From assembly GCA_017469445.1 (NCBI GenBank), contig JAFUGK010000014.1, forward strand, positions 1 to 64,000: a DNA stretch of 64,000 bases, given 5' to 3'. Under the pieces are notes generated by a model. It was not told where the DNA came from and did no database searches. It saw only the letters and a program-made list of their open reading frames with translations. The stretch comes from Clostridia bacterium. GTDB lineage: Bacteria; Bacillota; Clostridia; TANB77; CAG-508. Position numbers and translations under genes: made by a program. Position 1 is the first letter of the stretch, and every line of letters starts with the position of its first letter. Positions 172 through 2,565 of the stretch are shown piece by piece.

Positions 172-2565
172 ATGAAAAACACAAGAAAAAGTTCAGGAAT
201 TACGCTAATATCATTAATAATAACAATAATAGTATTATTAATTCTAGCAGGGGTAGCCCTAAACACACTAGTAGGAGCAAATGGGATAATAACACAAACA
301 CAAAGCGTAGTAGATAAATACAATAGAGAAGCAATGAGAGAGAAGGCATCACTTGCGATTGTGGAATTAGCCATAAAAAATAATTCGGGATATACAATGG
401 CAGATTATGTTAAAAATTTTGAAGATGGAATAGAAGTAGGAGGCGGTTTAATATATGAAGAAAATGAAGAATATTTCTATTTAGACGAAGACGATAATTT
501 AATAGAATTAATAAATAAGAATGGAACATTAGAAGTAGGAGAAGTATTAGGAAAGAATAATAATATAATAAGAAAACAAGTAAGCTATAATGCAAATGGC
601 GGAACAGGAGATGTACCAGCAAGTAAAACAAAGAGAAGCGGAACAACAGTAGAAGTAAATTTAAGTACAGTACCAACAAGAGAAGGATATGGTTTTGCAG
701 GATGGGCAACAAGTGCATCAGCAACTACACCAACATATACATCAGAAGGAACAACAAGCTTTACAATGCCAGAAGAAGATGTAACCTTGTATGCAGTATG
801 GCAAGCAAATAGACATACATTAGTATATAATGTAAATGGAGGAGAAGAAGGAACACAGCCAACAGCAGAAGCAGTATCATATGGACAAGTAGTAAATATA
901 GATTTAAGTACATTGCCAGAAAGAACAGGATATAGATTTATAGGATATGCAGAAACAGAAAATGCGACAGAAGCAACATATAAAACAGGAGGAACAACAA
1001 GTATAACAATACCAGATAGAGATGTAACAATATATGCAGTATGGGAGATACTATATACAATAAGCTATAATGCGAATGGTGGAACAGGAAATATGAACCC
1101 AACAGTAGATAATCCAGCAGTAGTAGAAGCAAATGGCTTCATAGTACCAAGTGGATATATATTTAAGGAATGGAATACAAATGAAAATGGAACAGGAACA
1201 ACATATGCAGTAGGAACAACATTGAATCAAAACATAACCCTATATGCAATATGGCAAGTAGACTTACAGGTGTCTGTAAATGCAAATGGACTTGCAACAA
1301 CAAATACAACAATAAAACCAAAACCAAATAGTAATGTAAAAATAACAATACCAGCAGGCTTTGCACCAGTAATCTTAAATGGAAGTAATACAACATCAAG
1401 TACAACCTCGCAAAGTGGAAGAGTAAAGTCAATAATACCAGCAAATGAGTGGAAGAATATAACAGTAGAACAAATAAATGCAGGAATAGTGGTAGTAGAC
1501 CATGCAATAACAAGTACAAATGGAGTACAAGATTATAACGAATATGTATGGATACCAGTAGATGGAAGCACAATAACATATGCACAGCACACATATGCAA
1601 CAAGAAACGCGAATGACACAAGTTGGCTAGCAGACACCGGAAATGGAAATTGGCCAACATATTACTATAGAAATTATTCACTATGGAAAAATAAGCATTA
1701 TACATCAAGCGCATACGAAGATGAAATGAGCACAAATACAACCAGTGTAGCAAAATATGGAGGCTTTTATATAGGAAGATATGAAGCAGGATGGGAGCCA
1801 GTAACAGCAAATACAACAAGATATACAAATAGTAAACCAATAGGAACTAGTAAGGTGCCATCAAGTAAATATGGATATTCAGCATGGAACCATATAACAC
1901 AATATGATGCATCAACAGCATGTGATAGGTTAAGTACAAGTTCAGTAAGAGCAAGATTAATAGATGGATATGCATGGGATACAACAGTGAATTATATATC
2001 AAATGCAGTAAGTAGTGTAATAGATAGTAGCCCATATGGAAATTACTTAAATGGAACAGCAACAGCAAGTGGAATAACCTATAAATATTCATTATATAGA
2101 ACAGCAAAAAGTGGAGGTGCTACAAGCTGGGTATATAATAATATATACTATAGAAGCGAGTCAAATGCAGTAACCTTAGCAGCAAGAACATTATCAGAAA
2201 GTTCAACAGCAGATATGGCATTGTTAGATACATTGCTTACAGAGGCAGGGTATTCATTAACAGACAAAGCAAATTACACATATAGACTAAGCTATGAATT
2301 AACAACAGGAACAGCAGAAAGCACAAAAGTAAAAAATATATATGATATAGCAGGAAATATGTGGGAATGGACATCAGAAGTAGGAGGAAGAGACACTTTA
2401 GCCGAAAGTAGCTGGACAAACAGCACCAAAACGTTCGCTGTCCTTCGTGGTGGTAGCTTCGGTTATGGTGGTAGTAGCAATCCCGTTTCTTACCGCTATG
2501 GTAGCAATAACGTTTCTCGTGCCGACTTCCATGTTGGTTTCCGAGCCGTGCTTTATGTGAAGTAG
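172..2565 (+). CDS. DGR target: prepilin-like surface protein with FGE/C-type-lectin-like variable domain
   Basis: This 797-residue exported protein is the one diversified by the adjacent retroelement. The N-terminus (about residues 9–34) is prepilin-like: a short basic leader, Gly, then ITLISLIITIIVLLILAG, but Ser replaces the usual Glu5. Three Listeria/Bacteroides-type repeats with NANGG/NVNGG starts and W-x-x-x ends occupy about residues 138–211, 216–291 and 295–362. From about residue 455 follows a formylglycine-generating-enzyme-like domain (EYVWIPV, GGFYIGRYEAG, GNMWEW at 728–733, RGGSF, GFRAVL), a C-type-lectin fold that commonly carries DGR variable regions. The last 40 codons are the VR. 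The start has an AGAGG ribosome site. Function is probably ligand binding or adhesion at the surface; no catalytic role is claimed. Confidence 0.88.
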   Translation: MKNTRKSSGITLISLIITIIVLLILAGVALNTLVGANGIITQTQSVVDKYNREAMREKASLAIVELAIKNNSGYTMADYVKNFEDGIEVGGGLIYEENEEYFYLDEDDNLIELINKNGTLEVGEVLGKNNNIIRKQVSYNANGGTGDVPASKTKRSGTTVEVNLSTVPTREGYGFAGWATSASATTPTYTSEGTTSFTMPEEDVTLYAVWQANRHTLVYNVNGGEEGTQPTAEAVSYGQVVNIDLSTLPERTGYRFIGYAETENATEATYKTGGTTSITIPDRDVTIYAVWEILYTISYNANGGTGNMNPTVDNPAVVEANGFIVPSGYIFKEWNTNENGTGTTYAVGTTLNQNITLYAIWQVDLQVSVNANGLATTNTTIKPKPNSNVKITIPAGFAPVILNGSNTTSSTTSQSGRVKSIIPANEWKNITVEQINAGIVVVDHAITSTNGVQDYNEYVWIPVDGSTITYAQHTYATRNANDTSWLADTGNGNWPTYYYRNYSLWKNKHYTSSAYEDEMSTNTTSVAKYGGFYIGRYEAGWEPVTANTTRYTNSKPIGTSKVPSSKYGYSAWNHITQYDASTACDRLSTSSVRARLIDGYAWDTTVNYISNAVSSVIDSSPYGNYLNGTATASGITYKYSLYRTAKSGGATSWVYNNIYYRSESNAVTLAARTLSESSTADMALLDTLLTEAGYSLTDKANYTYRLSYELTTGTAESTKVKNIYDIAGNMWEWTSEVGGRDTLAESSWTNSTKTFAVLRGGSFGYGGSSNPVSYRYGSNNVSRADFHVGFRAVLYVK
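2433..2552 (+). repeat. DGR variable region (VR)
   Basis: This 120-bp segment at the 3' end of the target gene aligns without gaps to the template repeat 1977 bp downstream. There are 20 mismatches, and every one faces an adenine in the template: 11 A-to-G, 7 A-to-T and 2 A-to-C. They change 16 residues (758, 764–766, 768, 769, 774, 776, 778, 782–788) and one codon silently (781). The last 19 bases, starting TTGGTTTCCGAGCC, are identical to the template and GC-rich, as expected of the initiation-of-mutagenic-homing segment. Confidence 0.95.

Follow-up and report, generated by a model that had tools for sequence, protein, structure and literature searches.

The window analysed here is a stretch of 64,000 nucleotides from a Clostridia-type bacterium with a genome of 1.5 Mb, whose closest named relatives are metagenome bins of uncultured Clostridia and Bacilli. 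Its start coincides with a contig end (G000:C21:1), and 171 bases further on begins a DGR cassette with the order target gene, mini-SSB, avd, reverse transcriptase (RT), template repeat (TR) and RT-14 RNA. A DGR (diversity-generating retroelement) is bacterial machinery by which a fixed template is copied into one end of a gene for a surface protein, with randomisation confined to the adenines of that template; SSB stands for single-stranded-DNA-binding protein. The following features, all on the forward strand, were assigned:

172-2565, +, target gene, 797 aa, with the variable repeat (VR) at its 3' end (ORF; Pfam matches)
172-324, +, prepilin-like N-terminus (KSSG/ITLISLIITIIVLLILAGVAL), common to 23 other proteins of the genome
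2338-2550, +, FGE-sulfatase-type (C-type-lectin-like) C-terminal segment, which includes the VR (Pfam, residues 723-793)
2433-2552, +, VR (20 mismatches to the TR, 20/20 at TR adenines)
2536-2552, +, IMH-like 3' end of the VR, GGTTTCCGAGCCGTGCT (TR copy at 4513-4529), the same in VR and TR
2707-2991, +, mini-SSB, 94 aa, predicted OB fold of the SSB/PriB type; lacks the C-terminal tail of SSBs (AF2, Foldseek, VIA)
2996-3382, +, avd (accessory variability determinant), 128 aa (bAvd PF22296, phrog_3206)
3354-4361, +, DGR RT, 335 aa, overlapping the end of avd (PDB 8ub7_A, phrog_1423, RVT_1)
4410-4529, +, TR (script alignment against the VR)
4528-4670, +, RT-14 RNA (RF02921), which begins at the end of the TR; candidate spacer (sp) RNA of the DGR (covariance model, covariation)
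4627-4678, +, RT-14 closing stem followed by a T run, an intrinsic-terminator-like transcript 3' end (fold of 4510-4675; T run read)

The preliminary description of this DNA had proposed adenine-specific diversification of the VR from the TR, and every core part of a DGR is indeed present. As written, it omitted the RNA element at 4528-4670, the mini-SSB at 2707-2991 and the prepilin-like architecture of the target.

Reverse transcriptase and Avd

Residues 3-326 of the RT, nearly its full length, match PDB 8ub7_A (E 2.3e-42), which we take to be the BPP-1 bRT complex. The protein also matches phrog_1423 (E 9.3e-107) and Pfam RVT_1, and it contains the motifs IGNLTSQ and YMDD. Avd was recognised by bAvd (PF22296, E 1.6e-14), above the curated cut-off, and by phrog_3206, 'Avd protein of DGR' (E 9.7e-20); with NCBIfam DivGenRetAVD it scored 61 bits, under the cut-off of 80. 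Among viral contigs we found no relative by the peptide patterns of the window RT and none by the TR pattern, and the RTs of a phage collection were all less than 60 % identical to it.

Template and variable repeats

A script recount placed VR and TR at a constant offset of 1977 over 120 gap-free columns. It confirmed, exact to the base, the earlier observation that every difference falls on a template adenine: 20 of the 36 TR adenines are changed (A>G 11, A>T 7, A>C 2). Identity extends one base further to the left (2432/4409), and the first non-adenine mismatch to the right, at 2553 (TR C, VR T), lies just beyond the VR end. That random drift would not behave in this way had been asserted before and can now be quantified, as the hypergeometric probability of all 20 mismatches landing on the 36 adenines is 2.5e-13. 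Scans of the window in which C, G or T instead of A was the free base gave zero matches, and a DNA search of the genome returned the TR and the VR as the sole two copies. A duplicated gene end shaped by ordinary divergence or assembly error, without any retroelement, would leave two repeat copies 1977 nt apart, but it is refuted by this adenine restriction and by the RT, Avd and RT-14 lying between or beside the repeats, and has practically no probability left.

At the protein level, 16 residues are altered, and the scaffold residues RGGS, NP and GFRAVL are the same in VR and TR, both as previously described; to this we add one silent change (GTA>GTT). The AAY codons of the TR had been said to avoid stops. 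This is true for all 14 of them and can be extended to every A-bearing TR codon, none of which can become a stop under any A-to-N change. The TR thus offers 20 variable codons, or about 1e20 possible proteins. VR and TR both end in the same 17 bases, a candidate IMH, and by analogy with BPP-1 the stretch 2536-2552 may act as one.

Target protein

The target matches Pfam Flg_new in three stretches (E 1.1e-28), and its residues 723-793 match Pfam FGE-sulfatase (E 1.4e-8). An AF2 model of the variable domain, built from four sequences, reached a pLDDT of only 31, and the profile of this domain found no sequence match in the PDB. Given the poor model, the putative C-type-lectin fold rests on the Pfam match. 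The N-terminus gave 24 matches in the genome including itself (E 8e-26 to 1e-7). Residues 5-30 resemble Pfam N_methyl (PF07963) weakly (E 0.015, 15.3 bits, under the cut-off of 21.2), and we therefore call the target prepilin-like and no more. Strong matches to T2SSE / type IV pilus-type ATPases occur in the genome. A Peptidase_A24 (prepilin peptidase) match at G000:C26:35878-36214 is split over two frames, which might reflect a frameshift, an assembly error or decay. In many related loci the gene in the variable-gene position carries the prepilin-like N-terminus of the target. The set of 24 prepilin-like proteins could represent a host system with one hypervariable surface protein. Two further proteins with this N-terminus are encoded in the window itself, at 16693-17880 and 56511-60656.

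RT-14 RNA

The RNA at 4528-4670 scores 101 bits with RF02921, against a gathering threshold of 48.1. Rfam describes this family only as an sRNA, with no clan and no function. In 19 loci the identity between TR and VR stops exactly two bases into RT-14, and the sequence CTCTAAT occupies the TR/RT-14 junction in 37/37 high-scoring loci (with the variants CTCTAGT and CTCTAAC once each). RNAalifold predicted 34 pairs from 28 high-scoring loci, 22 of them with compensatory changes, and RT-14 was present in all four loci that had been found by the RT protein alone. We sampled 299 genomes evenly across the phylum; nine besides that of the window contained RT-14, and in 9/9 a DGR-like RT begins 168-207 nt after the start of the RNA. 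The order in these loci is TR-RNA-RT, as in BPP-1, and in the family of the window RT-TR-RNA. Seven of the nine have a TR/VR pair with A-restricted mismatches; the other two are a mismatch-free repeat (L122) and a locus at a contig end (L125). RT-14 is a structured RNA located directly 3' of DGR TRs.

Might RT-14 be an independent RNA, regulatory or retron-like, that simply happens to occur near DGRs? Its Rfam entry reads as that of a plain sRNA, and five loci (L052, L070, L073, L075 and L082) combine a weak or even good RT-14 match with the lack of an RT in the fetched stretch. However, a bystander would not explain why repeat identity ends at a fixed point inside the RNA, nor why the junction is kept whether the RT precedes the TR or follows the RNA. 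Moreover, Bordetella phage BPP-1 has a structured RNA at the same place, 5 nt after the TR (Phage_DGR, RF03022, at 2750-2882 and TR at 2887-3020 of AY029185), and there the sp recruits bRT-Avd and primes cDNA synthesis (PMC12875486). We consider an independent RNA very improbable, and RT-14 probably plays the role of the BPP-1 sp.

Homology is another matter. RF02921 has no match in BPP-1, an RT-14-type covariance model built here (R1) leaves the BPP-1 sp undetected, and neither the RT-14 models nor the RF03022 model finds the other family, although the two RNAs have a similar internal motif, AGUA...GAA, in their last stem. Because the models do not detect each other, what we claim for RT-14 and the BPP-1 sp is an equal position and probably an equal role, not common descent. 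A link between RT-14 and DGRs is absent from the literature that we searched, a search that did not include the paper defining RT-14, which may have noted one. Recognition of RT-14 as a DGR RNA would assign a function to what is now an orphan family in Rfam, and would provide a search model for Clostridia DGRs, including cassettes without a nearby RT.

Several loci depart from the common arrangement. In L059 (G041:C8; RT-14 at 814 in the oriented locus) the TR is lost and the RT end is joined directly to RT-14. L070, L082 and L052 have TR/VR pairs next to their RT-14 match, and with no RT detected in the fetched stretch, the RT could be encoded elsewhere. L066, L071, L072, L074, L077 and others have weak RT-14 matches and a second type of DGR layout: the VR is situated just about 200-450 nt upstream of the TR, the TR match stops about 20-50 nt ahead of the RNA match, and in several cases avd and RT follow downstream on the opposite strand. 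Finally, L090 carries a tandem pair of RT-14 RNAs with TR-like sequence after one RT (1863-2310).

Variation among related cassettes

The preliminary description had suggested examining other copies of the VR for the same adenine rule. We collected 35 TR/VR pairs, including that of the window, from RT-14 loci of related genomes and from the four loci found by RT protein. In this pool 552/1251 TR adenines are changed, compared to 17/3101 non-A bases (A>G 284, A>T 202, A>C 66), in line with the rule; these figures are descriptive, because the scan left A changes free and discarded pairs with more than two non-A mismatches. One locus, L092, has a single TR and two variable genes, both of which follow the rule.

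A comparison free of this selection is provided by L042 and L043, two loci from different bins. Over 3947 nt they show 17 differences, 15 of which fall within the 109-nt VR; all 15 lie over TR adenines, and the TR is identical. The outcome agrees with that of the 35-pair scan. The occurrence of this cassette in two bins may be explained by a binning error or by transfer. Whether it is one, the other or neither, two VR alleles of one cassette occur naturally, and from this VR variation it follows that the DGR type of the window diversifies in nature. A second comparison, L053 with L060, was uninformative for the VR since the flanks do not align.

These data also bear on the idea that the window holds a decayed DGR, with a VR that was once diversified and a cassette that is now inactive. 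Some relatives are visibly degenerate, such as L059, whose RT runs into RT-14 without a TR, and L107, where only an RT remnant is found. In the window, however, the target, mini-SSB, avd and RT reading frames are all intact, the TR has kept its stop-proof codons, and the 120 aligned bases hold zero non-A mismatches, while a DGR of the same type varies essentially just in its VR between two genomes. We regard inactivity of the cassette as unlikely.

Mini-SSB

To our knowledge, the least understood step of DGR activity is how the cDNA reaches and replaces the VR. The mini-SSB might be relevant to this step. Its AF2 model (pLDDT 82.7, pTM 0.74) is an OB fold, and a Foldseek search with it returned SSBs in 50/50 cases among the matches listed. 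VIA aligned the model to SaSsbA with a Z of 14.2 (87 residues, 2.2 Å) and to PriB with 12.8. By sequence, the window protein falls under the gathering threshold of Pfam SSB (PF00436; E 0.03, 14.8 bits vs 26), and 11 of the 24 members of the mini-SSB family, which we assembled from the DGR loci, match PF00436 at E<=0.01 (best 3.1e-7). The PDB yielded no sequence match to the family profile at E<=0.01, and the link to SSBs therefore rests on the predicted fold and Pfam. Compared to SsbA/SsbB and PriB, with which it would share the OB fold, the mini-SSB is small (94 aa, about 75-100 in relatives), only 8-21 % identical in the listed alignments, and encoded inside a DGR cassette; its C-terminus (...EVNDIIRG) lacks the acidic tail.

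Across 85 genomes the profile detected 34 strong genes (E <1e-8). Housekeeping SSBs are clearly separate from these, being longer (mostly 135-163 aa frames) and scoring at E >1e-7. RT-14 adjoins 23/34 of the strong genes. Four of the remaining 11 start less than 340 nt from a contig end and were excluded from the neighbour test; for each of the other seven, a gene whose end is of the variable lectin type lies no more than 2 kb upstream. All 30 testable strong mini-SSB genes thus have RT-14 or a variable-type gene as a neighbour. One of the seven, L106, has a remote VR for a TR of the same genome (19/50 A changed, 3 non-A), and several of the seven mini-SSBs lacking an adjacent RT-14 are truncated. 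More distant RT-14 DGRs have no mini-SSB gene, so that the protein is not essential to all of them.

An alternative is that the mini-SSB is a passenger with no part in retrohoming, for instance the remnant of an SSB from a phage or plasmid, or a factor acting in counter-defence. The position of the gene does vary, before avd in the window and after RT-14 in most relatives, and in L042, L043, L045 and L046 it lies on the opposite strand; single members gave weak matches to AdfA and P56, and truncated copies exist. Yet a passenger would hardly be expected to keep such company in every strong match with upstream sequence (30/30), nor to form a group so cleanly separated from housekeeping SSBs. 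We hold this alternative to be possible, if rather doubtful, and favour a mini-SSB that takes part in retrohoming, as its fold and company suggest. In the literature searched, no paper links an SSB to DGRs. A cassette-encoded protein with a predicted SSB fold would be a concrete, deletable candidate for the step from cDNA to VR.

Proposed mechanism and comparison with known systems

We are highly confident that the locus is a chromosomal DGR of a small-genome Clostridia-type bacterium, which would operate as follows. The TR and the RT-14 RNA would be transcribed as one, and the RT together with Avd would copy the TR into cDNA, starting at the RT-14/TR junction and misreading template adenines on the way. 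The cDNA would then replace the VR and alter up to 20 codons at the presumed ligand-binding end of the target, a prepilin-like, C-type-lectin-like protein with InlB-type repeats, probably displayed on the surface. The probable task of the dedicated mini-SSB of the cassette is to coat the single-stranded cDNA or to hand it over. We infer the priming within RT-14, the surface display, the ligand binding and the role of the mini-SSB.

The adenine-only differences and their explanation by a DGR are known biology; what is added here is the link between RT-14 and DGRs and the DGR-associated mini-SSB. A broader reading, towards which we lean slightly, is that of a DGR class with its own ssDNA-binding protein. 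In this class the mini-SSB would bind the mutagenised cDNA (or the VR strand) and set the efficiency of retrohoming, and RT-14 would be the sp RNA of Clostridia-type DGRs that diversify prepilin-like surface proteins.

The BPP-1 DGR (mtd-avd-TR-sp-brt), whose changes are likewise adenine-specific (PMC12875486), resembles that of the window in the VR at the 3' end of the target gene, the avd and RT genes, and the structured RNA directly 3' of the TR. Unlike in BPP-1, the RT of the window precedes the TR, the RNA is RT-14, a mini-SSB is present, the host is a cellular Clostridia-type bacterium and the target is prepilin-like rather than a tail protein. With RF02921, of which the window RNA is a member above gathering, the difference is that a family listed without function is here placed as a DGR spacer RNA. 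Cellular DGRs with membrane-anchored, adhesin-like targets are known (PMC8144416); the window target resembles these in its N-terminal membrane segment and its putative C-type-lectin-type VR domain at the C-terminus, and differs in its InlB/Flg_new repeats and prepilin-like signal. Among DUF1566 targets, a 2019 survey makes passing mention of 'putative pilin structures' (PMC6642488).

Downstream of the cassette, a 239-aa protein with weak response-regulator similarity is encoded at 4671-5390 on the minus strand, convergent with the RT-14 transcript. An HTH-type protein and a large serine recombinase (6113-9203) adjoin the DGR, and within this region 6880-7020 is a possibly structured stretch (fold z -1.95), with no Rfam match at gathering.
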